This document shows positions 14,018 to 53,718 of a stretch of DNA of 64,000 nt, in pieces (position 1 is the stretch's first letter; the number at the start of each line of letters is the position of its first letter). The notes beneath the pieces were generated by a model. The model was not told the origin of the DNA, ran no database searches, and saw only the letters and a program-made list of their open reading frames with translations. A program made the position numbers and the translations under genes. This DNA is from Mesostigma viride (lineage: Eukaryota; Streptophyta; Mesostigmatophyceae; Mesostigmatales; Mesostigmataceae), in the NCBI GenBank assembly GCA_009746045.1, contig RPFO01001195.1:1-64000 (forward strand), given 5' to 3'.

Positions 14018-17000
14018 TTACTCCAGAGGGGAGACCTCGCCTTCATGGATGATGTACTTCTTGCTCTTCTCGGTCTCAACCTCCAGCCAGTAATTCTGGC
14101 GATCCCGTGGCTGCCGTGAGTGGAAACGACGTGCAGTGGACACAAAGTTGTATATGCAAAGCCACCACCACGCATGAATGTACATGCGTACGTGAGCGTA
14201 CGTGCACATGAAAGGTGATCATGTCAGTCACCACTCACATGTGCCATTCACCACCACATGGCCGGGGCAGGCAACGACCATGGAGAGCAGCATTAATGGA
14301 ACGTTGATAATCGATGGTTGGGAATTGAAATATACTGGTCACTGATGAGAAACATCGCTGGGCCAATCCACACATCCGATGAGCGCACTAAAGTGCGTGT
14401 ACACCGATTCACAGCCTGAAAACACCCTTGCTAAAGCCACGCCCAATTGCCTAGGGCCAGCGCGCTTGCATCGTGGCGTACTCCTTTCCCTTGCATGTCA
14501 GATGCATGTGCACGCAAGCATACCACTGAGTATGCTCAAGTCCTTCCAGCCGCACGCAAATATGTTAAGTGAGACAAATTATATGTGCACGCTGGCCAGG
14601 ATGGGCCTAACGATAAGTCGCACAACAACAATACTAGGTATTCCACCCACATATGCAATATTAATTAATGCATATCCACCCAAACCCCTCCCCCTCAATG
14701 TTTGTGAACTCGGGGTAGGTACCTCCGCCAATGATGTACCCCGTGACATAGCCATGAGGTTCGGTTCAGTGGTGGCCCACCCCACCCATAGTGTCTTACA
14801 TTATAGTGTTGCATGCCACCAATTCCCCTTGCCACCCATGGCAAATGTTCCCCTGCCGATTGCAGCCAACAACCTTACCATCGACGTCTCTAAGTACTAT
14901 ACCGTAGACGATTAATTAAACTCGTGCTCCCGTTGGGGAGTCACGGAGCATTAACCCCGATCGATGGATGGATGGATGGATGGATGGATGGATGGATGGA
15001 TGGATGGATGGATGGATGGATGGATGGATGGATGGATGGATGGATGGATGGATGGATGGATGGATGGATGGATGGATGGATGGATGGATGGATGGATGGA
15101 TGGATGGATGGATGGATGGATGGATGGATGGATGGATGGATGGATGGATGGATGGATGGATGGATGGATGGATGGATGGATGGATGGATGGATGGATGGA
15201 TGGATAGATGGATGGCTAATGTAGACGCTACTGTAGCATGTGTGGCTTGCAAGTCAGCCCTGATCAGTACGCGGACCCAGTAATCCACCCCCAGACCTGT
15301 AGCTAGCACTGTCATTTGCGACTGTTGTATCACCCATGTATTGTATTGTAGTGTATTGTGTTGTATTGTGTTGTATTGTAGCATACTGTAGCATACTGTA
15401 CCATACATGTAGCGTACTGTAGCGTACCGCACCGCATCGCATCGCATCGCAAAGCATCGCATCGCATCGTATCGTATCGTATTGTGTTGCAATGTATTGT
15501 GTCACCCACATAGTGTATACAATCGATACGACACCTATGGCGGGCACATGCTCTGCCACCTGCAGACTTGCATCCGACACCAATGGCGGACTTAGGCACA
15601 GTGATGCTGCCAACCCCACTCACGTGGTCCCACTTGCCGCGCCCGTCGTTGAGCACAAACTCTACGTGGTGCTTCGCGGGGATGATCGCGCGCTTGTACA
15701 CCTTGCGCGCGCCACCACCCTCAGGGTCCTCCACCTCGGTCGTCTCCATCTCCTTGCCAGGGAGGGGGGTCCAGCTGCGACCGCACACGCAGCGATCAGA
15801 ATTATAAGACGTACTCCACGCATGGTCAGTCGCAGCTAGCACATGGACTGGCATGAGAAAAGTGCATGCCCCATGCACTTGCGCCATGCATGATGAATGC
15901 CCCATGGATGCACCGGGAATGCAAAGAGAAAGGGGCCGCGTGCGAGGCACACACCGTGCATGTACCGGCACCAAGCCATGGTTATCGACAAAGTGTGGGT
16001 CGGCACTCAGCACATGCACCGCGGTCGCAAGATCGAGCATGGGTCGGCGCTCAGCACACGCACCGCGGTCGCAAGATTTAGTGTGGGTCGGCACTCAGCA
16101 CATGCACCGCGGTCGCAAGATTTAGTGTGGGTCGGCACTCAGCACATGCACCGCGGTCGCAAGATCTAGTGCGGGTCGGCACTCAGCACATGCACCGCGG
16201 TCGCAAGATTTAGTGTGGGTCGGCACTCAGCACATGCACCGCGGTCGCAAGATTTAGTGTGGGTCGGCACTCAGCACATGCACCGCGGTCGCAAGATTTA
16301 GTGTGGGCATACCTCACCCGCAAGAGTTGCGAGAAAGCATTTCAAGCAGCACCATAACCACCAAGGCAATGGCCCCATCATCGATGGGCGAGCTAAGCAA
16401 GAAAATAAAAATGATGCCCGCACATAAACAGCACGCCTGTGATGTCACAGCACCGCTCGAACAAACACGCCCCTTCCCCCCAAGCCACCCAGTTGTCCCC
16501 AAACCAGCTGTCCCTTCCTCCAGCCCCCCCTCCTTTCCCCCCCCCCCTCCTCCCTTCACCTCCCGGCCCGTCATCAACCCCGACCACCAGATGCATTAAG
16601 AACAAAAAAAACTTAAGATGTTATAGAACTACCAACAAACACCCAACATGGGATTACTCACGGCATGTCGTCGGCACTGAAGTGGATGAACGCCTTGTTC
16701 CAGCCGGTCTCATACTCCAACACCACCAAGCCAGACTCGGGCGCGTCCGCCTCTGGTGCGCGCTTCTGCGTGCGCGCCGCCTCCACCGGGCGCCGTTGCT
16801 CTTCCCTCCTCCTCTCCAGCGCGTCCCCCTCCTTGCCCAGGCTCTCCAGCTGCCGCGCCTCCTCCTGCTCCCCTTCCCTCAGCTTGTCCTTGAGCACTTG
16901 CATGCCGTCCCCAGTCGCCTCCTGCTGGCGCACGGAACCCTCTGCAACAGGCCTCGCGGTTGGCTCCTTGGCCCGTCGTGGCCCATACTCCTTGTCCTCC

Positions 17001-18064
17001 TCCTTCCTCTGCCCCTGGATCTTCTGCACATCCGCCAGCGCGTCCATGCCCACGTTCTCCGTCCTCTGACCCGGCAGCTGCAAATCGAAATCCGCCACCT
17101 GGCCCATCCCCTGGTTGACCCCTTGCTCCACCTTGCCCTCCATGCGGCCCGCGGCACCCTGCACGTTCTGCATCACACGGCCGCCCAACTCTTGCGCTTT
17201 CCCGCCCATGTCGGGTGCGCCCTCCTCGCCACGCTCCTTGCCGAGCTGGCCCTGCTTGGCGCGGGCTGGTTTCTGCTCTCCCTTGTCACTTCTCTTGGCA
17301 TCCGCCGACAGGTCCCACCTCTTACCCGACCCTTCCACCTTTGCCTCGTCGTCCTCCTTCGCCTTGTCTTCCTCCTTCTTGGCCTCCACGTTCAGGCCCT
17401 CCCTGCCAGGGCTCTCTGACTCGTTTTTCTTCGCCTGGAACTCAGGCTGGTCGTAGCGCCTGTCCTTGCCCTCCTGCTGCTTGGACCTCTCAGGAAATGG
17501 CTCGTCTGCACAGGTGGGACAGGAAGATAAACTGGCATTGAGTCCCAACTCCTACGTTTATAACTCACCTTTACTACAGATGTGGCGTAAATAGGAATGC
17601 ACTGGAAGGACCTCTAGCCTGCAGATATGGTAAGAAGCAAGTGCACGCCATAACCCTGCATGATCCTTGTTACCTGACAAGAAACCGAATTACCTTCCCT
17701 ACCTCGTCAAATGACGCAGTATAACTAGCCTAGAGAAAGATGTTAGCGAAGGTTACAAGCGAGAAGACAGCAATGCATGGAAAATGCGCGAGACAGCATA
17801 CATGCAATTCAACTTACGAGAAGGCTTCCCCTGCGGGGTTCCCTGAGAAGATGGCTGCTTGGAGTCCTTCTCAGGATTAAAAAAACGAGAAAACCATCCT
17901 CCCAAGGACGGATAAGTAACTGGCACCCCCGACAACCGAACTGGCTTGCCCCCGAAAGATCCCCGTACGCGAGGAGCGTTTAGAGATTGCCTTCCGCGGG
18001 GTGCGGACTGCAGCAGCGTGGCAGGACATTGCCTTGGCGCGATGGTTACCTGCACCGCGCTCAT
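14018..18064 (-). CDS. Short charged LEA-like protein with C-terminal starch-binding-type module
   Basis: Four exons on the minus strand: 18064-17818, 17505-16662, 15774-15624, 14110-14018. All junctions are GT-AG with phases 1, 2 and 0, giving 444 residues. Residues 1-82 are Arg/Ser/Ala-rich with almost no acid at the start, like a plastid transit peptide. Residues 83-340 are very Lys/Glu/Gln/Arg-rich and probably disordered, with a short Gly/Ala-rich amphipathic stretch resembling degenerate LEA repeats. Residues ~344-444 match the CBM25/CBM53 starch-binding pattern: E-Y-E-T-x-W, I-H-F, W-x-x-L-P-G-K-E-M, V-E-F-V-x-x-D-G, W-D-H, then N-Y and a final Y-x-x-x-x-G. The paralogue at 19069-26063 shares intron positions and phases. 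Inference: a plastid protein that binds starch or a related glucan. The family assignment rests on motif spacing only. Confidence 0.8.
14927..14940 (-). repeat. Retroelement 3' hairpin inside intron 3
   Basis: CTCCC-GTTG-GGGAG, preceded by ATTAATTAAA, sits at the left edge of the GATG array. It is the same terminus as family B elements, so intron 3 of the 444-residue gene has taken a retroelement insertion. Confidence 0.65.
14963..15217. repeat. (GATG)n microsatellite, ~63 units, in intron 3
   Basis: An almost perfect 4-bp array of about 255 bp, with one GATA variant near its right end. It lies directly behind a retroelement 3' end. Other copies of that end carry only two or three GATG units at the same place (63358, and reversed near 9945). 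The array therefore probably grew from a retroelement-borne seed. It reads as long Met-Asp-Gly-Trp or Ser-Ile-His-Pro frames, which are artefacts. Confidence 0.9.
15335..15510. repeat. Degenerate 5-bp repeat (TRYTG-type) in intron 3
   Basis: A run of GTATT/GTAGC/GCATC-type pentamers that changes gradually from TGTAT to GCATC and back. It lies entirely in intron 3 of the short LEA-like gene and has no coding role. Confidence 0.7.
15985..16310. repeat. 44-bp minisatellite, ~7 copies, in intron 2
   Basis: Unit begins GTGGGTCGGCACTCAGCACA and ends CGCAAGATTTAGT. The first two copies are slightly divergent and the last five nearly identical; an eighth is cut after GTGGGC. The array lies in intron 2 (15775-16661) of the short LEA-like gene. 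Confidence 0.9.
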
Positions 18065-19068
18065 AGTGAGTGATCTGATAAGCTCGTGACAGGCGAGTTG
18101 AATTTGTAATGGAATGACCGGGCGTTAGCACGGAAATGGTATACTTTGCACGCGCAACCGTCGAAAGCGCGTCCAAATCCATGAAATACTCAAGGGGGGC
18201 AGCTACAGACATTCGCACAGGACTTGAAATGTCTAGTTTCGTTATTGCTGTGCTTGCCTAGTGCCCACGGATTTACAGGCCTCACCCATCGGCCAGTTTG
18301 CATGCTGCAGGCTGCGGTAACGAGACGATTCTCCGATGCAGCGTTTGCCAGGCGAGGGCAAAGATGAAACACAGAAACTGCGTATCCTCGTCCTGAACGT
18401 TCCCAAGATCTGGTATGTGGACGGCGGCATCCAACAGAGAAGATTCCTAATGAGTCCTACTACGAATTTCGCTTATGTTCATCTCGGGATGCTAATAATG
18501 TGTAGCTAGCAATTAGTGGCAACTGTATGATACCTTTTTCTTGCCTTCAGCGATGGAGTCTGCGCGAGAGAATCTGTCAAGACGTGCCAAGACTGGCCAA
18601 GAAAATAATGAACCCCGAAGGCCCGAACTGTCATAAATCATGCACAATTATTACGCGGGGTCGCGGGCAGGGCAGGGTTAGCCGGCTGGTAGTGACGCGA
18701 GTTATTTCAGCATCTGTCCGTCGCGCATTTCGCTCACAGTGGACAGGGCTTGGCCGACGTGGGGATGGCCCACGTCCTCATATGAGCTCAATCTCATGTC
18801 CGCTTCATCGACTGCGCATCTTTATCTCCCGGGCCATGTGGCCAACCCGGGATGATGCCTTGCTAATTGCCTCCGCAGATGTGCAAGGATGCGGTAGGGT
18901 GCGATAAATTATGTTGGGATCGATTAACGCTGCCGCTTATCCTGATGCCAACCCCAGAGCGTGCGTGAGAAAACCAAAAGAGCTGGAATTGGTTCTCTGG
19001 CCCACGGACGCATTCAGCGTTCAACTGCGTGTTTATCTGGCAACACTCTCTATTCTTGCAATCTAAAC
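18065..19068. promoter_or_regulatory. Shared divergent promoter region of the LEA/starch-binding pair
   Basis: This 1,004-bp gap separates the two ATGs and is the only upstream sequence available to either gene. It contains no convincing reading frame and no recognisable retroelement end. Near its right end is an AT-rich ATAAATTATG at about 18904. The inverted ACGTGG pair at 18756-18776 is the most notable motif. Bidirectional control is inferred from the layout. Confidence 0.6.
18756..18776. promoter_or_regulatory. Inverted ACGTGG pair (ABRE/G-box-like)
   Basis: GACGTGGG, a 5-base spacer GATGG, then CCCACGTC form a perfect 8-bp inverted repeat. ACGTGG is the core recognised by plant bZIP/ABF factors at stress and LEA promoters. 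Whether an alga uses the same code is unknown. The site lies 293 bp from the right-hand ATG and 692 bp from the left-hand ATG. Confidence 0.45.
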
Positions 19069-22000
19069 ATGCAAGTCGCCGTAGTTCATTCATCACTTCT
19101 TCCGGGAGTGAGAAATGTGTTGGTCAGCCAGCCTAGTTTCTCAAACTCGAAGCGGTCGGCTAACCGTAGTGCGTATTCAACGAGGCCTCCGCCCTCTCGT
19201 CCCCTAGGGCTGTCGATGTTCATGGGCCGCTCGATGAGCCTGACACTGTCCGGTTCTGTCCTTGACAGGTTTCCGCGGAAGAAGTTGGAGGCGAAGAGCC
19301 AGGGCCAGGAAAGCTCAGGTTAGTGTCGTTAGGCCTCCATTCCCCGCACGGCCATGTTTAAAGTTTTTCTGTTCACCGTTTAGAGCTGTTTTCAAGCAGC
19401 TTGTTCAGCCTGTCAGTCTTGTACCTGCAGGCGTAATTGCTCTGACGGAAATTGGAATTATGAGAATTCTGCGATCCAGCACCGTTTCTGTTTTGTCCTA
19501 GCCGCTTCTGACCATACAGTCCCCGCATGCTGACATCACCTGATTAACCCTGATCGTCGATGTTTGTGATGCTCTCGATATACAAAGACATTGCCCCCGC
19601 CCATTCAGCCACCAGGCCACCCGCACTTCTTTCTCATTTTTGTCTACTCTTTCCCGTCTCCTTCGCTGCATGTATAGCCTTGAGGCTTGATATTCAGTAT
19701 CGCTGGCTGTTGGATGATGTCGGATCTCTCCGCAAGAGATCTTCGTGATATGATCCAGAACAACTGAGAGCAGCACTTGCACAACATGAGGCACCTGAAC
19801 ATCCCCGCTTACATTTCTGCCTTGCCATGGAGCTGTCACGCTCAACCTGGGTGATTCTCACGTATAGAACAGCACGGCGCCATAACGTGCTAAGGTTTGC
19901 CCGACCCCTCCTACGCCCCCCGCCCCCCTCCATACACACCCATCCCTTGCTCCCGCCCATCCTTTTCTACTTTTTTTCACCAACATCTTCCTCAGGTCGG
20001 GAGGGCGAGGATGACGCCACCCACCCGGGCAAAGCGGCCAGGGATGCGCTCATGTCAGCAAAGGAGGGCACTGACGACGCCCGTGACGAGGCGGCCCGCG
20101 CGATGGAGCAAGCATCGGACCAGACGACCCAAAAGGCATCGCACGCGGGGGAGTCCATACAGCACGGGTTGGGTGCGGCCGGGCGCGACGTGCAAGCGCA
20201 GGCATCCAGCGCGGTGGACAACCCGATGTCGAAGCTTGGGGGCGGGACCACGGGGGGCAGGACCAGGGGGGAGTCGACCCTGGGACCCCAGATGTCCCAG
20301 TACGGCGGCGGTACCACGGGGCGGGCGTTCCAGGGGGAGCCATCACAGGCTGGGCGTGAGGTGGGGGATCGTGCCAGGGAGGCCGGGCATGAGATTCGGG
20401 GCGCTGCTGAGGAGACGGGGGACAGGTTTAAGGGCGCCGCCTCTGACACTGGTGACCGCCTCAAGGGTGCCGCACGTGAGACAGGTGACCGTGCGCGGGA
20501 GGCGGGGCATGAGTTCAAGGGCGCTGCCTCTGAGACGGGCGACCGCGTCAAGGGCGCTGCAGCTGAAACGGGCGACCGCATGAAGGGCGCTGCCTCTGAG
20601 ACGGGCGAGAGGGTGAAGGGCGCTGCAGCCGAAAACGGCGACCGCGCCAAGGAGGTGGGTCGTGAGGTCAAGGGGGCGGCGCAGGAGACTGGGGAGCGAG
20701 CCAAGGGCGCCGCCTCTGAGACTGGGGACAGGGTGAAGGGGGCTGCGGAGGGCGCCAAGGTCCAGGTGTCGCGTGCGGGCGAGACGGTGGGCCGCAAGGC
20801 GCAGGAGACCGGGGAGGGCGTGAAGGAGGCAGGTCAGGAGGTGGGGCACAAGGCCAAGGGGGCGTGGGAGGGGCTGACAGGGGTGGCGTCCGAGGCCAGC
20901 AGCTGGGTCAGCAGCAAGGCCAAGGAGGCGGGGGAGGCGGCGCGTGAGGTGCGAGGGGAGGCGGGCCACAAGGGGGAGGAGATGGGGGATCAGGCGAAGC
21001 AGGCCGGGCGTGCGGTGGGCGATCGTGCCAAGGAGGCCGGGCACGAGATCCGGGGCGCTGCGCAGGAGACGGGGGACAGGTTGAAGGGCGGCGCCAGGGA
21101 AACGGGCGACCGCACCAAGGAGGCTGGGCAGGATGTGAGGGGTGTGGCGCAGGAGTCGGGAGATCGCGTGAAGGAGGCTACCTCTGAGACGGGTGAGAGG
21201 GTGAAGGGCGCTGCAGCCAAAACCGGCGACCGCGCCAAGGAGGTGGGTCGTGAGGTCAAGGGGGCTGCGCAGGAGACGGGTGTCCGTGCGCGGGAGGCGG
21301 GGCATGAGTTCAAGGGGGTGGCGGCCGAGACCGGCGACCGTGTGAAGGGCGCTGCCTCTGAGACAGGCGACCGCGTCAAGGGCGCTGCTGCTGAAACCGG
21401 CGACCGCGTGAAGGGCGCTGGCTCCGAGACTGGGGAGCGCGCCAAGGAGTTTGGCGGCCAGGTGAAGGGTGCGGCGGCAGAGACGGGGGAGAAGGCCAAA
21501 GAGGCCGGTCAGGGCATGGGTGACACGGCTCGTGAGGCGTGGGAAGGGATGAAGGGAGCGGCAGCCGAGGCAGGGGAGAAGGTCAAGGACATGGGCAGGG
21601 AGGCGCAGGGTGCGGGAGACCGTGTGGGTGAGAAGGCGCGCGGGATCGGGCAGGAGGTTCGTGCGGAGGCGTCACGCGAGGAGGGTTGGGTGGAGAGCGC
21701 GGGGAACCAGGTGGGGGATTTGGCCGGGAAGGCAAGGGGGGAGGCGTCGCGCGCTGGGCAGGATCTGGGCGACAGGGCCAGGGGGGCGGGGCGGGAGGTC
21801 CAAGAGGCCGCCAGGGACATCGGGCGGGAGGCCAGGGAGGGCGCAGGTCAGGTCGGGGAGGAGGTGAAGACCATGGGCGCAACGCAGGCGGAGGAGGCAT
21901 CGCGGTTTCAGGACGAGGTCAAGCGCAAGAAGGACGCGGTGCGGTTCGAGGGGATGAGGCCCGAGGGGGGGAGGGTCGAGGAGGGGAGGGTGTTTAGCAA

Positions 22001-25000
22001 GGAGAGCCACGAGGCGAGGCGGGAGCCTTGGTCGGATCTGAGGGCGTTGAGGCCTGAGGGGGGGCGGATCTGAGGGCGGCGGGCGCAGAGGCGGCCGGGC
22101 GGGTCCAGGAAGGGTCGACGGGTGCCGGGAGAAGGATAGAATCTGCCGGGGAGCAGTTTGGTGACCGGGCCAGGGAGGCCGGGCAGGACGTCCAGGGTGG
22201 GGCGAGGCAGGTGGGTGATCGTGCCAGGGAGGCGGGGCGTGAGGTCCGGGGTGCTGCGGAGGAGACGGGGGATAGGATTAAGGGCGCCGCCTCTGACACC
22301 GGTGACCGCCTCAAGGGTGCCGCACGTGAGACAGGTGACCGTGCGCGGGAGGCGGGGCATGAGTTCAAGGGCGCTGCTTCTGAGACAGGCGAAAGGGTGA
22401 AGGGTGCTGCCTCTGAGACGGGGGAGAGGGTGAAGGGTGCTGCCTCTGAGACGGGTGAGAGGGTGAAGGGCGCTGCTGCCGAAACCGGCGACCGCGCCAA
22501 GGAGGTGGGTCGTGAGGTCAAGGGGGCGGCTGCAGACACGGGAGATCGCGTCAAGGGGGCCGCCTCTGAAGCAGGCGACCGCGTGAAGGGTGCTGCCTCT
22601 GAGACGGGCGACCGCGTCAAGGGCGCTGCTGCTGAAACCGGCGACCGCGCCAAGGAGTTTGGCGGCCAGGTGAAGGGTGCGGCGGCAGAGACGGGGGAGA
22701 AGGCCAAAGAGGCCGGCCGGGGTGTGGGTGATGCCGCACGTGGGACGTTGGAGAAGGGCAAGGAGGTGGGGCAGGAGGTGCGTGCCAAGGGGTCTGAGTT
22801 TGGCGAGCGTGCCAAGGATGCGGGCGCTCAGGCGCGCGAGGGTGCGGAGGAGCTGGCGGAGGTCACCAAGGAGAAGTCTCGTGAGGTGGGCGCGGTGGCT
22901 GGCGTGGTGGGGGAGAAATCACAGGAGGCGGCGGGCAGGGTTAAGGAGGGAGTGGCCAATGCCGGGGAGGCGACCAAGGAGACCGCGCAAGCAGTGACAG
23001 AGCGGACCAGGCAGACCGTGATGGGTGCACAGGACAAGGTGGGCGAGGCGGGGGAGAAGGCCAAGGAGCTGGGGCAGAAGGCCAAGGGGAAGGTGGGTGA
23101 CGCTGTGGAGGGGACGGGGGAGGTGATCCAGGCGGGTGCTTCGAAGACGCAGCAGACGGCGCAGGCGGCGGCGGATAAGGCCAAGGGGACGGCGGCCGGG
23201 ATCAAGGAGGGCGTGGAGCACCGTGTGAAGGACCTTGGGGAGCGCATCCGGCACGGCATGGAGGCGATCGCGGCCAAAGTCGATCAAGTGGTGGACCCGT
23301 TTCTGGGCAAGGCGATGGACAAGGTGATGGAGATGGAGGAGGGGATATCGGGCGGCAAGGAGCAGCCGTTCCGGATGACAGAAGAGAAGAAGGTGCTCGC
23401 GGAGATGGGCCAGGTGGGGGGCGGGGTGGCCGGGTTGGAGGGGGGCGAGGCGGCAGGCATGGGGCAGGAGACCCTGGCCACGCCCTACGGCTTGCAGCCG
23501 CAACCGGATCGCCCGCAGGGTGGAGCCAAGGGGGTGGAGAAGAAAGATCTGATCGCCCTTGCGCACATGCAGGCGGCGGAGGCGGCGGCGGAGGGCGAGA
23601 TGTCGCTGGAGCCGCCACCTGTCATCGTGGGTGGGCAGGCGGTGGACGTGTCCCCCCAGGAGATCGGGATGGATGTGATGGGGGAGGATGTGGAGCTCCC
23701 CTCGCTCAGCGTGATGGGGGAAGGGCAAGGGTTTCAGGCAGTGCCGGAGACGGATGTCTTGTCGGAGGAGGCCGGCATGGCAGATGCGGGGAAGGGCGCC
23801 GAGGCGCCTGCCCAGACTATCTTCGGGTCGGGGATGGAGGTTCCTGGGGCGGGCGCTGGGTCGAGGGTGGAGGCGGCACCAGGGAGTGCACCACGGGGGG
23901 GCACGTCTCGGTTCGGGGCCAAGGCGATCGTCCTTGAGTACGAGACAAGCTGGGACACGGCCTGCATCCACTTTGTGACGGACGGCACAAAGTAATTCGC
24001 TCATCCCTTTGCCACTCACTCCTTGTTGTGTAATGCTGTCATCCTTTTCATTGTCCTGGTATGGTCTCCCTCTCTTCCTCTCTCTCCCTCTCTTCCTCCC
24101 TCTCCCTCTCTTCCTCCCTCTCATCCTTGTGGCATAATGGTGTCATCCTTGTGGTGCAGTGCTCGCATCTTTGTTGTGACATGCTGCCAAGTGCCATGCT
24201 TGTTGTGTCATGTTCTCATCCTTGTTGTATAATGCTGCCATCCTTGTTGCGTAACGCTTCCACTGTGACGCTCTTGTTTGGGCTTGTTGCTGTGCCCTGT
24301 TATTTGGATGTGTTATTCTTATGGGCGGCACCAAGTAACGCACTCATGAAATGCGCAGTGTGCATGTTCTCTTCATATGGCCTCGATTAAAATTGCTGTT
24401 TTCATGGGTGAATGGTTTCTGTGCCCGTGCGTGGGCAGATGCTTGTTACACTGCTGGAGCAGTTGGCGTGGTGCCAAGGCCTTCATTTTCCACATCGTGG
24501 GACCTGCCTTTGTTTTTGAATGCCTTATAATGCATGCATGCGGCCGGTTGTTTTTATATTGCATATCTCTTGCTTGCCTTGCTTTCTTTTCCGTGAACAA
24601 GCTTGGCGACGACTAGTGCTGATTTGCTTTGGGTATTGTGCAATTGGGTAGAAAGCGCAGGCAATTCCAGACATGCTTTAGTGACCATGACTGATACTAC
24701 TCCTGGCTTCCTTACCCAACGCGCCGTCCAATCTCTTTCTGCCTTCCTCTCTTCACCTCCACTCTGCCTCTCTCTGCCTCTCTCTGCCTCTCCCTGCCTC
24801 TCCCTGCCTCTCCCTGCCTCTCCCTGCCTCTCCCTGCCTCTCCCTGCCTCTCCCTGCCTCTCCCTGCCTCTCCCTGCCTCTCCCTGCCTCTCCCTGCCTC
24901 TCCCTGCCTCTCCCTGCCTCTCCCTGCCTCTCCCTGCCTCTCCCTGCCTCTCCCTGCCTCTCCCTGCCTCTCCCTGCCTCTCCCTGCCTCTCCCTGCCTC

Positions 25001-26063
25001 TCCCTGCCTCTCCCTGCCTCTCCCTGCCTCTCCCTGCCTCTCCCTGCCTCTCTCCCTGCCTCTCTCCCTGCCTCTCTCCCTACCTCTCCTCTCTCCTTCT
25101 CTCCCTCTCTCTTTACCCCTGTGCCTTACGACATCCTTTGACAGCTGGGAGAAGCGTCATGGCAAGGAGATGGACACGGTGGAGGAGACGCGCACGCCGG
25201 ATGGCCGCCGGGTGCTCGTCAAGCGCACGGTGGTGCCGGCCAACGAGTTTGTCGAGTTTGTCATCAGCGACGGCAGCGAGCAGCAGTGGGACCATGTGAG
25301 TGCGCACGCAGTGGGCCGTTGGCTGTGGTGTGTGTGCATCCAGTGGGCGGTTAGTTGTAGTGACCCTTGCATGGCAGCTGGTGCGTGCTGGTGCATGCTG
25401 GTGCGTGCAAGAGGCACATGAGTGGCCAGCAGGTAGGTCTCAGCCTTGGCAACCTCCATTGGCAGGCGAACCAAGTTGGCAATCACCCACCCGATCATGA
25501 CCTGCCCTGTGAGGCCGTAGCAACCATTGCGACAGTTGGTCCGAATGCTTCATCATGATTGTGAGCATGATCCATCACACATGGTGGCCGTTGGGCACAC
25601 ACACTTGCAGTCTGGTGCCAAGTATTGCCCCCTCACTGTTTGTCACTTGGAGTCGATGGTAGTCGCGTAAAAATTGTATGCACCAAGTTTGCGGCTTTCT
25701 TGCACATGGAGCTTGCACGTGCAACCGTCACTTTTCGCAAGTTCAGCACCACAAATGCTCCGTACAGCATCCTTCTACCGAGGATGCTGGAATTATAACA
25801 TGGCTCCTTTGGGAGATCATGTAGCAACTGCACACCAAGGATGATGGCTAACTGCATTTATAGTTGTCTCGCTTAACATATTGTACTAATCATGCGCATG
25901 CTCACATCTTTTTTGTGGCCTATTTCTGCTCTGCTACCTCCAAACTTACATTTTACCATGTTGCCTCATGCAGGGCCCGAGCGAGCATTACGTGGCATCT
26001 GTGAAGGGCGACAAGTTTACCAAGTACCGCCTGGAGGGGGGTAATCTGACCTTGGAGAAGTGA
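19069..26063 (+). CDS. Long LEA-type 11-mer repeat protein with C-terminal starch-binding-type module
   Basis: Four exons: 19069-19318, 19996-23991, 25145-25295, 25974-26063. Junctions are GT-AG with phases 1, 2 and 0, identical to the divergent paralogue. One G is missing in the run 22058-22064; with it the product is about 1,495 residues. Residues 1-83 form a Ser/Arg-rich transit-like peptide. Exon 2 is dominated by 11-mers of the type E-T-G-D-R-x-K-G-A-A-x, the group 3 LEA (LEA_4) pattern that folds into amphipathic helix on drying. These are arranged in larger near-identical blocks. Residues ~1396-1495 form the same CBM25/53-like module (I-H-F, N-W, K-E-M, V-E-F-V-x-x-D-G, W-D-H, H-Y, Y-R-L-E-G-G). 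Start at 19069: first in-frame ATG and matching transit-peptide length. Possible TGTAA signals follow at 26167 and 26205. Likely role: water-stress protection held at a glucan surface (inference). Confidence 0.85.
20343..22730 (+). repeat. Higher-order LEA repeat blocks in exon 2
   Basis: Blocks beginning V/M-G-D-R/Q-A-R/K-E/Q-A-G (near 20363, 21000 and 22213) each pass through the same order of 11-mers (E-I-R-G-A-A, then D-R-x-K-G-A-A, then H-E-F-K-G-A-A). Nucleotide identity is high between the first and third blocks, so the protein has grown by duplication of units of several hundred bases as well as single 33-bp steps. Confidence 0.8.
24755..25085. repeat. 10-bp CTCCCTGCCT array in intron 2
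   Basis: About 30 near-perfect copies of CTCCCTGCCT, flanked by looser CTCTCTGCCT and CTCTCCC units. It lies between the donor at 23992 and the acceptor at 25144 of the long LEA-type gene. The polypyrimidine strand is next to the acceptor, so it may affect splicing. Confidence 0.9.
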
Positions 26064-46300: not shown

Positions 46301-49300
46301 TTCCTGCCTTGCGCTTGAAGGCCTCTCTCACGCTTGAGTGCCCGGAACCTACTGTTTTTTCGGATCCGTCCCCTGCTTGTCCCAGTTTTTTTTTGTGGTT
46401 GGGACAAGCACCTTTTTCCGCAGGCCATTCGGGTGACCGAGTTCCTTTTCCGTGTCAAATTTCTTAACTTTGTTGTTGTAAAGCTACGGTACACGCGGAA
46501 AGACCTGTGCAGCGGAACATTAACCTACGGCAATCGACTCACAACTACGTACTAGGTACGGTACATTCTTCAGGAAGAACGAATTCGGTTTAGTACACGT
46601 TCAGAGCGTCCTATTTACCAATTTCGTCGTTGTCCCAAGCCCGGAGCTGGGACAAGCCGAAATTGGTGCCGCACAGCCAGACAGCAGGGCGCCGCGCCGA
46701 TCCTATTTGGAACTTGGAGCCTATTTTGGCCATGCGTGAGAGGACGAAGCCGAAATAGGGTGGATTTTGGCCAAGCGTGAGAGGAACTTCGGGAAATAGG
46801 TCGTACCCCTAAAAAAAGTTTGTTCCGGGCCCAAGCCAACTTTGTGTTGCCTGCCTCATTCCCGTAATTTATCATCTTCAAGGTGTATATAGCACGCCCA
46901 TGTAATAATGTAATATTAACGATATAGTTCATAATATTATATTGACTCGCATGTATACATGCATATGTCATGGCTGCACCGCGCGCTTCTCACGAATACC
47001 CTCTACACTGTACTGCCATGGAAATTAAGTGGGCCCTCTCTCTTGTGCATCTGGACCATGTCTGATATCGCCATCCTTATCCATGGTGTCGCCGAACGCC
47101 CCGCACCGCAGCTGGCATCCGTCACCATGTCCCTCGCAGCCGGCGTGCCCGCGTCCACGCTGCACCAGCGGTGGGAGGCCGCGTTCCGGTCGGCCGAAGC
47201 CACCAGCGCGCGCATGCGCCAGCTGGACATTGCGCGCGCCCACGCCGAGTATGCCGAGTACGGTGGGGCGGGGAGGGGAGAGGGGGTGGGGAGGGGGGAA
47301 GCAGGAAGGCAGGGGGGGACCGCATTGGAGACGCTACGGGGAACAGAACGAAGGGAAAAGGGGTATCGGACGGCGGAATAACAACCGGGTCGGAAGCACG
47401 AGGACGGATCCCAGAGGACGAGGAGACCAAGGGAAGGGATGGGAGGACGATGAAGGGAGGGATGGTGGATGGGGGATGGGAGGCAGCAGGAAGAGGGCAG
47501 GGCCGGTTGGGTGCTGGGGGGAGCGCGGGAGCACAGGGCACTGGCCGCGCGCGTGCGCTAGCGCAAGAGATCAGTTCCTTGCGGCGGCGGCGCGATTTGG
47601 ACCTCTTCTGCCGCCAGCTGCCCCTGTACGCCGAGTGGCAGCACGCGCGCACACACCTGGGCTACCCTGAGCTGGCGCTGCTGCGGCTGGTCGACCCGCT
47701 GGTGGGCCACGTGGGGCTGAGTGCCCCGCGGCCAGCTGACCCCATGAGCCAGGCCCATGTAGCATCCCTCAAATTAGATGCTGCATCCGGCACAGGAGTG
47801 GGCAGTGGTGGCCTTGGCCCGCACGGTGGCCCTCCCACGCCCTTTGGCCGAGACGAGGGAGAGATTTCCCATGCAGGCTCCTGCCTGGCGGACTACGAGA
47901 TGCTCGAGCGTGTCACCTGCGGCTCCTCTCCCTTGGCCACCACCCTGCAGAGGTCCCTGGGTGGGCACGATGCCCCTCGGCGCGATTCCCTTGGGGGCAA
48001 GGATGGCGACAACGCATCAGCCGCACCAGGTGGCGCCCATTTGTCACCGCACGCGCCCTCACTCGGTGGCGCACCTCTAGGAAGCGCTTCCGAGGCAAGT
48101 AACCCGTTGGCCCCACGTCCATCAGCAAAGGGAGAAGGATCTGACACATTCCGTGCCACCCTGCAGGGCCGCCCTTGCCGACTGCTGCGCATTGACCTGG
48201 CGGATGCGGCCCAGGTGGCCCACCTCCACTTCCTGCTGACGGTCGTGCGGCGCCAGCTGGCGCACCCCTACGTGATATCGATCGACGGGTGCTTCCTGGA
48301 CGGCATGGCGGCGTGGGTGCAGCTGCCAGCGTACAGCAAGGGGACGCTGGCCGACTGGGCGGCACGCACCGCCCGGCAGGCCGGCGGGGGGGAGGCGGTG
48401 GCCGGGGGGGGGCAGGGGCGAGGGGAAGGTGGCCGGGAGGCAGCGCTATGGCGGCTGGTGTGCGTGCTGAGGGAGGTGCTGCGAGGGGTCGAGTTTATTC
48501 ATAGTCGCGGCGTCGTGCATGGGCGGCTCTCCTGTGACAACGTCAGCATGTGAGTGTGGGCACATGCAAGAGTACGGATTGTTGGATGGCATGGGGTTAA
48601 CAAGTACACAGGGGGCGGGGGTGATGCAGAAGGGGAGAGGAGGCCGGGGGCTCCTTGCATCCCTGCCCTTATTCCAAATATTTGCTGTATGTTTTATCTT
48701 TCTCGACAATAAAATTTACTGTTTTTTGTTCAATGGGCAGATTCTTAAGGCAATGGGCTGATGGTGTCCCAGAGCTCAAATGAGGAGCAGCCCAGCGGCC
48801 CCAGCCTATGCTGGCATGTGCTAGGCGTTCACTGGACTAGATAGCCCCCCGACCTGTCTCGATGTCTACTCACCTCATCTCATCCTTGGCATGGACCCTT
48901 TGCCTGTCTGTTGGCTACTTGTGCCCGTCCACGTGGCCCCCGCTTTTGCCCCGCACCTGCCTGTTGAATGCTGAACACAATGACCCAAAACACAAAGCCC
49001 GAGTGCCATGCCTGTTGGATGCCTGCCGAAAGGAATGATTCCTGATGGAATTGCATGCGCGGCGGTCGCGCCATGTAATCTGCCTTGCTCTTCCCTTACC
49101 CTGCAGGGGGGATGGCGAGCCTCCGATGCCGATTCTATCCGGTATGGTGCCGCCGCTGCTGCCGCCTGCCACCGCTGCTGCTGCTGCTGCTGCTGCTGCA
49201 AATGTTGGTATGAACACTGAGACCGCGGCGTCCGCCGGCCGGGTCCACCCCAGACTGGCGGTGGGTACCGACGACAGCGACATCGACGACAGTAACTTGG

Positions 49301-52300
49301 GTACTGGCGAGGGTGTTGAATCATTTTCTCACGACATGCCCCACGGCAGCCCCTCGGACGATATGCACGCGTTTGGTGTGCTCGCGCTGCGGTGCTTCTT
49401 CCCCGGACGAGACGTCTCCCCCCTCCTTGATGCGCTCTCGCAGCCGCAACGAGGGGGGGGGCACCTGGCAGCGCCACCGCCCCTGGTGGCAGATGCCCAC
49501 CAGTCCAATACAAACAGCAACGCCCCCCGGTCTACTGTCAGCAGCATGCATACACCCCCGCGTGCTGCGGTTCGCGACCACAGCCCGCACCGGCCACCAA
49601 CGCCGCGGCAGCAGCATAAGCAAAGGCAGCCATCGCACAACGCCCACCGTTGGGGCCACAGTGCAGGCCCCTACGAGAGTCCCGCCGCATCCCCCCCATG
49701 TCTACTGACGCACGTCCCCAAGGTCTTGGAGCTGTTCCTCCGGCGACTACTCCAGCCGGATGCGGTCCAACGGCCCAGCGCGACCGCGGCCCTGACCGAC
49801 CCTCTGTTCCTGGGGGGCATACCTGCGGGGTCAGGGGTGGGGGTGGATGTGCCGGACGCAAGCGCTGGGATTCGACACGGCAGCACCGGTCGGCCCCGCA
49901 GCCACGCGGCCGCGCCCCGTCACAAAGGGACCAGCGCGGACGCGTCTGGGACGCTAGTTTCTGGGGACGTCATGGGGGTGAGGCCCGATGATGACGGGGG
50001 TGGCGCCCAATTGGCCACCCCTTGCCCTGGTTGTGGGGCCACCAGGGGGGAGGGAGGCACGGGAAGGCATGGGCAGGGTGGTGTGTCCGTGCTGGACGGG
50101 GATGGGGATGGCAGCAGGCGGCAGAACGGTGCATCCGCGAGGGGCGCGGAGCGCGGGCTGGAGGACCTCCCTGCGATCGTCGCGGCGATAAAGTCTCATC
50201 GCAAGAGGGTGGCGCGCGCCGCGGTGACCCCTGGGGGCAACGGCCGCGTGGTGCCGCTCACGGTGAACCGATCCAATGTGCTGGCGTCCGCGTTGTGCGC
50301 GGTGGTAGGGCAGCCACCCTTCGCCGACATTCCTGATGGCGATGGTGACCGTGACGGCGGCCAGGACAGCCCACACGGGGCCAAGGGGGCCCGCCGCCGG
50401 CACCAGAGCGCGCGTAGCAGCAGCCGGGGGAGGCAGCGAGAGACGGACCCTGCCCAGAGGGGTGGCCCTGGCCTTGCAGGTGGGGTCATGGTCGGGGACA
50501 TGGATGGGGGTGGGGGTGGCCGACCGCACATGGGGAATTACCACAACATGGTTTTGGTGCCACGCGGCGGGGTTGCTGTCCCCAGGGATGGTGTGGGGGG
50601 CACGCCGGACAGGGCGCGCGTGCGGGTGCCCGCATCCCCGTGGCATGCCTCATCCTCGGTGGGTCGTCGCTCGCATGGCCGACGATCGGCGACGAACGTT
50701 ATCCCCCCGTTGTTGCTGCTGGACCCCGCGGTTGCGGGTGACAGCGATGCCCTGTTCCGCCCACTGGCGGTCTCGTTTGAGGGCGAGGGGTCGGCGTGGC
50801 ATGGGGGCCTGGTCGACGAGTTCTTTTGTGCCTTCTTCACGGCCTTCGTGGAAGAGCACTGTGGGGATGCGGCCGAGGGGAGCTGCTGGGTGCTGCCGAC
50901 GCCACCGGTGAAGGGTGGCGTGCCGCCAGGAAGGGAGGGGTCGCCACGGTGGAGAGAGGAGATGCCATCGTGGGGGGGCGCCGAGGGGGGGCAGGAAGGG
51001 CGTGCCGGGCCCAGCGCGGATGGACAGGGACGGGGCAGCTCCAGGGAAAAAGAAAAAGGATGCCGGGGGGGGCAGGATGGTGGCGGTACTGGGCATGGTG
51101 GGGAGATGGGGCAGGGGGGGAGGGATGGACTTGGTGTCACCCGGGGTGATGCCGGAGGAAAAGTGGCCATGGCCCAAGATCAGCCATGGCCCGCGCAAGG
51201 CGGCCCGACAGCCCTTGTGAATAAAGGCAAGGGCGCTGCCACCCCAGAGAGGCACGCCCAGGTGTGTCTGCCCATGGGGGATGCCCATGGCGATGGCCAT
51301 GGCCTCACCCATGCCCAGGCAGGAGACGGCGACGCGTGGGGGTCTTCCCCGGATCGCTGGGAACCCTCGGGGGAAGGTGGAGCGATGATACCACCCTGGC
51401 AGGCGGCGCCGGCACACCGTGACGTCGGCAGGTACAGCGCTGAGGGCCATGGCCCCCATGACCTCCTCCCTCACGCTGGGGGCCACCTCCACGACCTCCT
51501 CCCTCATGCTGGCGACCGCAGGGACAGGCATGCCATGAACCGTGGGCACGATGCGGTGACCAGAAGTCACATCGCTGGGGAGCCGCGAGGACAGGGTCAT
51601 CCCAGGACACCGGGACCTGCCGGACGTGGGGGTGTCCATAACACAGCACATGTGCATGCGTACGTGTGGCCTGCCCACACGGGTGGATGGGCACAACCCG
51701 CTAACCCGACAGAGCGCCACCTGGCCATGTGCCGCCTTGCTGGCATGCTCCTCTTCAAGTGCCTTCTGGATGGCCGTAAAGTGGCCACCCGCAGCGGCAA
51801 GCAGCTGTCCCCCGTCCTGTTCAAGCACTTGGTCGGGGCGGCACCGAGCGAGGACGACCTCCACGCGTTCGACCCGGCTAAAGGCCGCCTGCTCCACCAG
51901 GTCATGCTGGCAACCGCGACGGAGCTTCCCTACCTGGGGCTGTTTTTCCCCGGGGGCACCGCGAATTCCATTGTCAAGGATCAGGATGATGACGACAGCA
52001 ACGAGGAGGAAGACGAGGGCAGCATGGGGGCAGCCGTGATGGCGGCGGCGGCAGCAGCAGCAGGGGGCATCGTGGCACCTGGCGGCCTGCTTGGCCATAG
52101 ATCCGCTCAACCAAACGAGATAACGAGATTTGACACGGCGGCACCCAAGGTTCCACCTGACCATGCGCCGGGGCTGTTCTTTCCCAAGAGCACGTCTTCG
52201 CCTCCAGCACACCCAGCCTACAGGCCCGCCGATGGAGGACATGTGCCCTCCCTGTCCAAGGATACCTGTTTGCCTCCCCCTATACAGCGTGCGTTCTTGC

Positions 52301-53718
52301 CCCCGTCACGCCCAGCCCCCATGCAGGTCCATGTGGAGCAGCCGCTGACTGCTGGCAACCGGCGCGACTGGCTGCGGTGGATGGTGCACGAGTCGCTGGT
52401 TGGGTGCCGGCATTCGTCACTCGACGCGTTTGCGCAGGGGTTCTGGCAGCTGGCAGGGCGTGCGGCAGCAGACACCGAGCAAGCGGCGGCGACCACGCCC
52501 GGGGGTCACCAGGGGGCGGGCATGCCTGGCTCGCCTGGTCACTATATGCCGGGCGCGCATGGAAATCACACACACGGCGACGGGGACGCACAGGCCCGTG
52601 ATCATGATACCCCCACCAGGTGGCCGCCGCGCCAGGGGCCCCTGCACCCTATTTATCTGCTCCAGCATCCCCAGGGGGGTGGCAACGAGGGGGCCCCCCA
52701 CGCGGCCCATGCCAGGCCGCACCTGGGGGGGGGGGCACTCCGCCACCCCAGCCCCGCCCACCGCCAGGCGAGCCCTCTCCGCCGGCATGTGAACGAGCGG
52801 CCCGTGACGCGCGCTAGTGGGCGGGGTGGGGACAGGCCCCACGTGGCCTTGCCCATGCTGCTGGCGCGGCTCACGCAGCTGTCAGCAGAAGAGCTCATGG
52901 CGCTGGCATGCGCGCCACCGCACGTGGACGCGGCACTGTTGCTGCGCTGCGTGCGATTCGTGCTCCCCGCGCATGGTCATCATCACCCACATGCCGAGGG
53001 GGGGGGGAATCATCATCGTGCTGAGGGGGGGTGGACTCAAGCGGCGATCCCTCAGTTGACAGGGAGGGAGGGCGAGGAGCGGGGGCGGGCAGCAGCAGTG
53101 GATGCAGTGGAGGGAGATGCGGCTGCTCGCGTGGTGGCGCCTGCGTCTGGCATCGCTCCTGGAGGCACGCCAACGGATAACCTCTGGCAAGCAGGCTCCA
53201 GCCACCCTGGGACGCAAGCAGACCTGCGGACGCAAGCAGAAGGCGATGGATATGGGGCAGGGGGCCCATTGGCCCCGCGGCCTGATGCGGATGGGGCGCC
53301 GCACAGGCCTGGCCACAACGCCTCGTCCCGCAACGACGCCGACTTTAAGGCCACGTTTGAGCAGGCGATTCGGGCCATGTCGCAGGAGGCCCTGCGAGGA
53401 CTGCTCGTGTTTGTGACGGGTGCGGCGGTGCTGCCCAGTCGCGCCGACACTCGGCCGGGCAAATCATGCATCGTGGTGGAGAGGCTGGGGCCGGGAGTCA
53501 GCGCCACCGCCACTGCCTCCGACCACGGCGATGCTTATGCCCTTGGTGACGCTTCTGCCCTTGCAGGTGCCCGGGGCGGGGGCGGTGTTGGCCTGCGGCT
53601 CCCTCGCGCGTTCACCTGTGCCAACTTGTTGCTGCTGCCAGACTATGGCTGTGCCGAAAAGCTGCAGGGCCAGCTTGAGATAGCCATCCGCAACGAAGGG
53701 ACCGGCTACGGGCTGTGA
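37393..53718 (+). CDS. Giant ankyrin / pseudokinase / HECT-type E3 ubiquitin ligase
   Basis: Nine exons: 37393-37575, 38620-38718, 39444-40038, 41017-41180, 41656-42720, 43759-45261, 47112-47262, 47568-48549, 49107-53718. All have GT-AG borders and compatible phases, giving about 3,117 residues. Two ankyrin units span exons 2-3 (W-L-H-L-A-A-E-L-G, then E-T-P-L-H-V-A-S-R-E-G-H). Exons 5-6 are mostly low-complexity with Leu-rich helices. Exons 8-9 carry a kinase-like fold. The end is a HECT domain: L-A-V-S-F-E-G-E-G near residue 2130, and L-P-R-A-F-T-C with the catalytic Cys at ~3085, 33 residues from the C-terminus as in HECT enzymes. HECT ligases accept ubiquitin on that Cys and pass it to substrates. 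The start is uncertain; an acceptor at about 37462 is possible and further exons may lie upstream. Confidence 0.8.
37690..38095. repeat. 35-36-bp minisatellite, ~10 copies, in intron 1
   Basis: Unit begins ATAGAGTATGGAGGGGGGAG and ends GAGGGGTAAGTGCG. Every unit contains GGGGTAAGTG, a perfect donor-like sequence, so the intron holds about ten decoy 5' splice sites downstream of the true donor (GGG|GTAAGG, 37576), which the repeat resembles. Confidence 0.9.
38440..38525. repeat. Short ATGGGTACCTTGTC repeat in intron 1
   Basis: About six copies of a 14-15-bp unit (CATGGGTACCTTGT and variants with GATGCC, GTGTC, GATTCC). It sits between the 36-bp array and the first ankyrin exon. Confidence 0.7.
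38620..40038 (+). CDS. Ankyrin-repeat exons of the HECT gene
   Basis: 38620-38718 encodes one ankyrin unit with the helix H-L-A-A-E-L-G-E-A-E-L-A and the turn H-G-H-P-L-D-A-R-N. After a phase-0 intron, 39444 continues with G-E-T-P-L-H-V-A-S-R-E-G-H. The rest of exon 3 is Gly/Glu/Gln-rich linker, then a final D-T-A-G-R-S-P-I-D-V-A-R-D-A unit near 39950, a third partial ankyrin repeat. Ankyrin units usually bind substrates or adaptors; none can be named here. Exon 3 ends CCAG|GTAGGG in phase 1. Confidence 0.75.
40484..40840. repeat. 10-bp ATTGTGTGTG array in intron 3
   Basis: About 33 nearly perfect copies of ATTGTGTGTG, with a few CATTGTGTGT variants at the right end and ATTCATGTG at the left. 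Intron 3 also holds a GGTCGGTCGG/GGGCGGGCGG block at 40295-40410. Confidence 0.9.
41199..41272 (+). repeat. Long poly-G tracts in intron 4
   Basis: Two G-runs of roughly 20 bases each, about 25 bases apart, just inside the donor of intron 4 (GTAAAGG at 41181). The plus strand, and so the pre-mRNA, could form G-quadruplexes. Run lengths are unreliable in an assembly that undercalls G. Confidence 0.8.
42856..43495. repeat. 18-bp minisatellite, ~35 copies, in intron 5
   Basis: Unit TGTTTGTCCACCGCATCG, with variants at three positions (GCAGCG, TGGTTG, TGTATG). The period is a multiple of three and has no stop, so all six frames stay open and give long hexapeptide-repeat ORFs. Clear donor (CCACAG|GTGAGA at 42721) and acceptor (GTGGCCAG at 43758) place it in an intron. 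Confidence 0.9.
45435..45645. repeat. 11-bp GGTTGGTGTTG array in intron 6
   Basis: About 18 perfect copies of TTGGTGTTGGG. The complementary strand gives Pro-Thr-Gln-His-Gln frames that are artefacts. It is G-rich on the transcribed-sense strand. Confidence 0.9.
46055..46240. repeat. 36-bp minisatellite, 5 copies, in intron 6
   Basis: Unit begins CTCGCATCTGATACCATGCA and ends TTACTATACTGTATCC. Copies are almost identical. It lies about 400 bp after the 11-bp array in the same intron. Confidence 0.9.
46310..46800. repeat. Foldback-like block with nested hairpins in intron 6
   Basis: Hairpin 1 has arms TGCTTGTCCCA (46374-46384) and TGGGACAAGCA (46400-46410). Hairpin 2 has imperfect ~19-bp arms at 46618-46637 and 46648-46666 sharing GTTGTCCCA/TGGGACAAG. 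The outer pair CTCTCACGCTTG (about 46324) and CAAGCGTGAGAG (about 46772) is inverted over ~450 bp. Similar pieces (CGAAATAGG) repeat near 46750 and 46792. A non-autonomous foldback element is the simplest reading. Confidence 0.5.
47568..49960 (+). CDS. Pseudokinase-like segment of the HECT gene (exons 8-9)
   Basis: Exon 8 contains A-D-Y-E-M-L-E-R, a beta-3-like L-L-R-I-D with Arg where kinases have the ATP-binding Lys, then W-R-L-V-C-V-L-R-E-V-L-R-G-V-E-F-I-H-S-R-G (helix E) and V-H-G-R-L-S-C-D-N-V. That last piece aligns with H-R-D-L-K-x-x-N-I but lacks the catalytic Asp. Exon 9 (from 49107) gives no DFG motif, but later shows D-D-M-H-A-F-G-V-L (helix F) and R-P-S-A-T-A-A-L-T-D-P (helix I with its Arg). 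The fold is thus kept while catalytic residues are lost, as in pseudokinases. The join at 48549|49107 completes a Met codon. A poly-Ala run encoded by GCTGCTGCT repeats lies just after it. Confidence 0.65.
50745..53718 (+). CDS. HECT ubiquitin-ligase domain with large insertions
   Basis: The domain starts with F-R-P-L-A-V-S-F-E-G-E-G and G-G-L-V-D-E-F-F (about 50755-50830). It resumes at H-L-A-M-C-R-L-A-G-M-L-L-F-K (51720) through F-K-H-L-V-G and D-D-L-H-A-F-D-P. Next come T-A-G-N-R-R-D-W-L-R-W-M-V (about 52350) and D-A-A-L-L-L-R-C-V (about 52930). The C-lobe has L-L-V-F-V-T-G (53403), L-P-R-A-F-T-C (Cys codon 53617-53619) and the terminal G-T-G-Y-G-L. All core elements and the catalytic Cys are present. 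Gly/His-rich insertions of up to ~290 residues (50900-51700, 52450-52850, 52970-53340) split the N-lobe and linker. They are open in frame, so they are either translated or unrecognised introns. Confidence 0.8.

Follow-up and report, generated by a model that had tools for sequence, protein, structure and literature searches.

Two divergently transcribed genes of the early-branching streptophyte alga Mesostigma viride, which we call A (18064 down to 14018, minus strand) and B (19069 to 26063, plus strand), encode proteins that both end in a starch-binding-type module, a statement supported by its likeness to CBM25 in sequence, in fold and in three ligand residues. The genes lie in the first 64,000 nucleotides of contig RPFO01001195.1 (assembly GCA_009746045.1; C1725:1-64000 in our genome scans), hereafter the window, and their start codons are approximately 1 kb apart. 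Judged from their sequences, A and B are candidate starch anchors or scaffolds and not proven drying-protection proteins, and we regard it as an evenly balanced proposition that the pair encodes two non-enzymatic, plastid-directed glucan tethers.

Two genes with one exon plan

Each gene has four exons (Table 1), all introns of both are GT-AG, and the intron phases run 1, 2, 0 in A and B alike. Intron 1 lies behind the first 80-odd residues, intron 2 falls inside the module at the first ligand tryptophan, and intron 3 comes directly after a W-D-H motif; the latter two interrupt the A and B modules at matching aligned positions. The spliced product of A is 444 amino acids long and is identical over all 444 residues to the eukprot entry jgi/Mesvir1 Mv16237-RA.1, while that of B amounts to 1,495 amino acids if read across a frame break in its second exon. 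An earlier note on this DNA described two proteins with a common C-terminal module, which we confirm for both genes and both modules, and it had allowed that the third and fourth exons might belong to another gene. Those of A are present in the annotated model and the introns of B stand at the matching places, and such intron places, common to both genes inside a common module, argue strongly that exons 3 and 4 are parts of A and B.

The N-termini are also alike in character. Neither protein has an acidic residue among its first 60, for which the chance is about 1e-5 from their own composition, and S/T and K/R abound there. The transit-like N-termini ascribed earlier to both proteins are thus supported by composition, which would suit a transit peptide for either organelle, plastid or mitochondrion; of the two, the plastid is likelier because of the starch module. 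No enzyme domain was found by Pfam in the hydrophilic bodies of A and B.

The C-terminal module is of CBM25 type

Aligned over 100 columns, the modules of A and B show 41% identity (E 8e-24); over the whole module length the figure is 38%. For comparison, bacterial CBM25 and CBM53-like loci were fetched by DNA pattern and 157 segments cut out, of which 154 were full-length and 117 remained after a 72% identity filter; a W-PG motif divided these into 76 and 41, and profiles were made from 27 of the 76 (CBM25) and 25 of the 41 (CBM53-like). Pfam recognised CBM_25 in 27/27 of the first set, with CBM26 in 8/27 and CBM53 in 3/27, and both CBM53 and CBM_25 in 23/25 of the second. The hidden Markov model of the 27 bacterial CBM25s matched A at 6.9e-15 and B at 5.1e-7, where the best of 1000 shuffles (500 each) reached 0.96, and that of the 25 CBM53-like modules gave 3.5e-4 and 0.67. 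Profile alignment with hhalign followed the same order, at 98.3% (2.5e-14) for A and 86.4% (4.7e-6) for B with the CBM25s, compared to 46% (2.1e-4) and 0.2% with the CBM53-like modules. The similarity to known CBM25 sequences is therefore significant and beats shuffles. Among PDB sequences, the A module found three CBM25s at 5.2e-6 to 3.1e-5 (2c3v at 5.2e-6), the next two, unrelated, standing at 0.5-0.6, and a profile of A and B together found CBM25s at 4e-4 to 1e-3. Pfam scans of the two modules gave no match to CBM53 (PF16760), the CBM48 models or CBM20, and in the fold comparison, among the families listed, the module shows the CBM25 beta-sandwich. The profile search and structure prediction proposed in the earlier note have accordingly yielded a CBM25 match and a beta-sandwich; of its CBM25/53-type assignment the CBM25 part stands, and the CBM53 part falls for want of a Pfam match and with a worse match than to CBM25.

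The maltotetraose site of the Bacillus halodurans CBM25 is formed by W34, W74, H26, D81 and N76 (PMC4625611). H26, W34 and W74 of 2C3V are kept in A and B and correspond to H357, W365 and W412 of A, so that three of the five ligand residues are identical to 2C3V in each protein. In the bacterial segments the histidine occupies its column in 110/117 and W34 in 116/117; W74 was set by the search pattern, and its conservation count is not independent.

Points against two working glucan tethers

A number of results weigh against this interpretation. With Pfam CBM_25 the isolated A module scores 25.4 bits (E 1.8e-5) against a curated cut-off of 27.3, and the whole A protein 21.6 bits; since the cut-off is missed, we name the module CBM25-type and not a member of CBM25. 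The B module has no match in Pfam and, taken alone, found nothing relevant among PDB sequences. Predicted without an alignment, the module has no confident fold (block predicted local distance difference test score, pLDDT, 35-46). The heptad signal in the helix of A is modest, being reached by 2% of shuffles, and a Rubisco-binding-like motif of the form W[RK]xx[LIVA] occurs in neither A nor B. Taken from a 1060-residue B query, the last 344 residues matched nothing in the protein database in the length range searched. At the site itself, N76 is replaced by H in both proteins and D81 by N in A, which is a common residue at that column, and by H in B. Last, gene B is interrupted in this assembly and is not one open protein, a frame break that the earlier note did not mention.

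The replaced N76 and D81 speak for a module that no longer binds glucan and has become a protein-binding or structural end piece. We hold this to be highly improbable, as the two tryptophans and H26 have been retained in paralogues that have diverged to 41% identity. It is also improbable, if not to that degree, that gene B has decayed or is not expressed as a single protein, leaving A alone functional. Such decay is favoured by the one-base break within exon 2 and by the missing database match to the C-terminal part of B. On the other side, the reading frame runs uninterrupted for some 2 kb both before and after the break, and splice sites and phases are intact. Exon 2 contains a segmental duplication flanking the break (20359-20658 vs 22209-22508, 90% identity over 300 bases), and a pair of 99-codon repeat copies from opposite sides of it shows 0.047 nonsynonymous (dN) and 0.302 synonymous (dS) substitutions per site, which argues that both sides have been maintained as protein; over a longer 133-codon stretch, partly non-repeat, dN is 0.163 and dS 0.411. 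The break sits in a run of seven G, a usual site of read error, and on the sequence a read error or recent change appears more likely than old decay. An intron with a strong donor that bridges the break was also considered and rejected: among 153 frame-keeping GT-AG pairs, none had any of the eight strong donor hexamers tried.

The bodies of A and B

The body of B, read across the break, has a self-identity of 0.351 at lag 11 vs 0.06-0.15 at lags 2-10. Units found by [EDKQ]xG[DEVQ][RK]-like anchors, a search that partly fixes the first five consensus positions, number 36 and average to ETGDRVKGAA; 20 of the 35 spacings between them are 11 residues and 11 are 18 residues. The periodicity and the averaged unit together confirm the ETGDRxKGAA-type 11-mer body noted earlier for the longer protein, and the repeat is strongest at about residues 177-616 and 793-1012. 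The body is hydrophilic (grand average of hydropathy, GRAVY, -0.96) and Cys-free, and at 98 degrees it has a hydrophobic moment of 0.361 vs 0.167 +/- 0.012 in shuffles, where the control, HVA1, gives 0.198 vs 0.134 +/- 0.027. Repeats of this kind belong to a class of 11-residue amphipathic helices that includes group 3 LEA, apolipoprotein and synuclein-type repeats. The body of A is of another nature: it is predicted at low confidence and is probably disordered, with a helix at residues 281-329, and its moment is weak (0.219 vs 0.169 +/- 0.026).

Two alternative accounts of the pair draw on these repeats. According to one, which follows the earlier note, A and B would be protectants of the group 3 LEA class that the module fixes to starch or glucan; they would lack structure when hydrated, turn helical on drying or freezing, and guard plastid membranes or enzymes near starch. 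The hydrophilic, Cys-free body of B with its 11-residue period and helical amphipathicity agrees with this account, and chloroplast LEA_4 proteins do exist (COR15A and LEA11; PMC7215670). The B body scores above shuffles against both HVA1 and a LEA_4 gene found elsewhere in the Mesostigma genome, and within-unit permutations that keep the period seldom reach its score (6/200 for HVA1, 1/200 for the Mesostigma gene), which shows that residue order within the unit matters. Reversed, however, the body scores as well as it does forward (181 vs 179 with HVA1, 189 vs 188 with the Mesostigma gene), and the likeness is therefore probably a direction-free residue pattern, poor evidence of common descent, rather than ordinary homology. 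Pfam LEA_4 has no match at E 10 in A, in the open stretches of B or in two pieces of B, nor did a LEA_4 scan of the genome find a match at B, while the LEA_4 gene elsewhere in the genome passes the cut-off. This absence is not decisive, because HVA1 itself falls below the LEA_4 cut-off (9.8e-4, behind Apolipoprotein at 3.8e-5). The A body does no better than shuffles against HVA1 (77 vs 69.5 +/- 9.8). On this evidence we consider the protectant account unlikely, and the earlier description of both proteins as LEA-type is fair for B as a matter of repeat physics, that is, of the 11-mer amphipathic-helix class, and holds neither for A nor for LEA_4 membership.

The other account takes the 11-mers of B for a lipid-binding arm of the apolipoprotein, perilipin or synuclein class, attaching starch to the envelope or the thylakoid, a task that MFP1 and PTST2 share in Arabidopsis, where membrane-placed starch initiation is established (PMC10801857). 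The strong amphipathicity of B would serve such an arm. Apolipoprotein is also the best Pfam model in its first open stretch (7.3e-19; 68.7 bits, below the cut-off of 90), and ApoLp-III just passes there (36.8 bits vs 36.3), yet in the second stretch ApoLp-III attains 29 bits, below its cut-off. As the Apolipoprotein model also matches HVA1 and the Mesostigma LEA_4 gene, its match in B may show composition and period only, and the apolar positions of B are mainly A and V, with few large residues. We think this account quite unlikely. In further searches, part of the B body found nothing at E 0.1 in PDB, and NCBIfam gave sub-cut-off matches only, all of them to B (Ag473 lipoprotein, Scy, GvpQ, phasin), which we read as composition.

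Relatives and distribution

The Mesostigma genome (440 Mb in 2243 contigs) was scanned exon-wise, a procedure that is weak on diverged exons and that missed exons 2 and 4 of B; with the A module as query, five candidates were scored and four of them were exon matches, of which A has three and B one. In a protein database of 5.8 billion sequences, where relatives sharing 5-residue words were reachable and the best 7991 (full A) and 7992 (B) candidates were scored, both full A and its module region found A itself only (one cluster, two member sequences). None of the literature matches listed, which covered few subscription papers, describes a CBM25 joined to a body of 11-mer repeats or of LEA type.

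Feature coordinates and other observations

Table 1. Exons and other features of the A and B genes, numbered from the first base of the window.
Feature	Position	Strand	Remarks
Gene A exon 1	17818..18064	-	Transit-like N-terminus, first D/E at residue 65; end phase 1
Gene A exon 2	16662..17505	-	Low-confidence body, helix 281-329, first module strands; end phase 2
Gene A exon 3	15624..15774	-	Middle of CBM25-type module (W365 = W34, W412 = W74 of 2C3V); end phase 0
Gene A exon 4	14018..14110	-	Final module strands and stop
Intergenic stretch	18065..19068	.	1 kb, upstream of both divergent start codons; follows from exon positions
Gene B exon 1	19069..19318	+	Transit-like N-terminus, first D/E at residue 66; end phase 1
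Gene B exon 2	19996..23991	+	Long 11-residue amphipathic repeat body, then stretch with little repeat and first module strands; end phase 2
One-base frame break, gene B exon 2	22058..22073 (about)	+	Run of seven G; open frames on both sides
Gene B exon 3	25145..25295	+	Middle of CBM25-type module; end phase 0
Gene B exon 4	25974..26063	+	Final module strands and stop

Simple repeats occur within the introns of both genes. Gene A has a long run of a 4-base unit in intron 3 and a 44-bp tandem repeat in intron 2 (about 14959-15213 and 15992-16307), and gene B a long run of a 10-base unit in intron 2 (about 24770-25050). Elsewhere in the window, an open frame on the minus strand at 33157-33927 matches the eukaryotic porin model Porin_3 (8.1e-7, just above cut-off). 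On the plus strand at 47066-53718 there are two large open frames, the former weakly matching a protein kinase (0.0017, under the cut-off) and the latter ending in a HECT ubiquitin-ligase match (6.7e-17); they may form a single gene that unites a kinase-like part with HECT.

The genome holds two further items that bear on these families. The LEA_4 gene used above, at L131:1051-1842 (G000:C1:10498365 region), scores 58.1 bits vs a Pfam cut-off of 51.1 and has, by eye, a hydrophobic stretch resembling a signal close to where it starts. According to the M. viride genome paper, the alga yielded no homologue of late embryogenesis proteins (PMC6947507), and given this gene the statement seems incomplete. 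Of 55 genome matches to AMPK1_CBM, a CBM48-type model, 49 fall in one 22-kb stretch (G000:C1:6723306-6745069, minus strand, loci L123-L130 and L133-L135), where they are arranged head to tail; 37 of these matches span 190 bases or more, and eight of the matched stretches are within one 1052-residue open frame. On sequence, the cluster resembles a giant gene in which starch- or glycogen-binding modules are repeated in tandem dozens of times.

A possible role in the placement of starch

If A and B are glucan tethers, then after import the module would grip starch or nascent glucan while the body would hold it to something else. In A, the helix adjoining the module may bind a partner protein, as in PTST1; in B, the amphipathic repeats, which amount to roughly 800 residues, might rest on a membrane, on the surface of a protein or on the pyrenoid boundary. 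Their job would be to place or organise starch, like PTST and SAGA in other greens, through another binding module.

PTST1 (At5g39790) carries a module of the CBM48 type, whereas the Mesostigma module is of the CBM25 type and has no CBM48 match; the likeness proposed between them is one of layout. At5g39790 is described as a chloroplast-localised, starch-binding, coiled-coil scaffold with a transit peptide, a coiled-coil helix and a C-terminal starch-binding module (PMC2653042), and A may resemble it in its N-terminus, transit-like by composition, and its helix of modest heptad character. In Chlamydomonas, starch is brought to the pyrenoid by SAGA1 and SAGA2 (PMC12874041), plastid proteins that are not enzymes and whose starch-binding module is CBM20; they also have motifs for Rubisco binding. 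Mesostigma too is an alga with pyrenoid starch, a pyrenoid and starch granule having been seen by electron microscopy (PMC6947507), but its pair has neither a CBM20 match nor the W[RK]xx[LIVA] motif, and because of the latter we claim no SAGA mechanism.

Compared with the bacterial CBM25s (the amylases of Bacillus halodurans and Paenibacillus polymyxa; 2c3v/w/x, 2laa, 2lab), the Mesostigma modules have N76 and D81 replaced and sit on bodies free of enzyme domains, whereas the bacterial module is part of an amylase. The CBM53 repeats of starch synthase III share a related starch-binding fold, W34 corresponding to W340 of AtSSIII (PMC4625611), but A and B match the CBM25 set better, the CBM53-like set compared being bacterial and not plant synthase III, and they have no synthase domain. 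With group 3 LEA proteins such as HVA1 and the Mesostigma LEA_4 gene, B alone shares the 11-residue period, hydrophilicity and amphipathic-helix class; it differs in having no LEA_4 match, is fused to a starch module and is 1,495 residues long across its break.

A more speculative and rather unlikely extension would be that an early-branching streptophyte puts its starch in place with a tether pair of its own making, built on a bacterial-type CBM25 module: A would be a short PTST1-like adaptor and B a very long arm of amphipathic 11-mers able to coat or span a surface such as the pyrenoid rim or a thylakoid. This arrangement would add a third solution, arrived at independently, to those based on CBM48 (PTST) and CBM20 (SAGA). 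Should A and B bind plastid starch, they would offer a testable handle on starch placement near the ancestral base of land plants, in an alga whose genome paper reports SAGA1 missing (PMC6947507). In that case, scaffolds for starch would have arisen repeatedly, from binding modules of different kinds.

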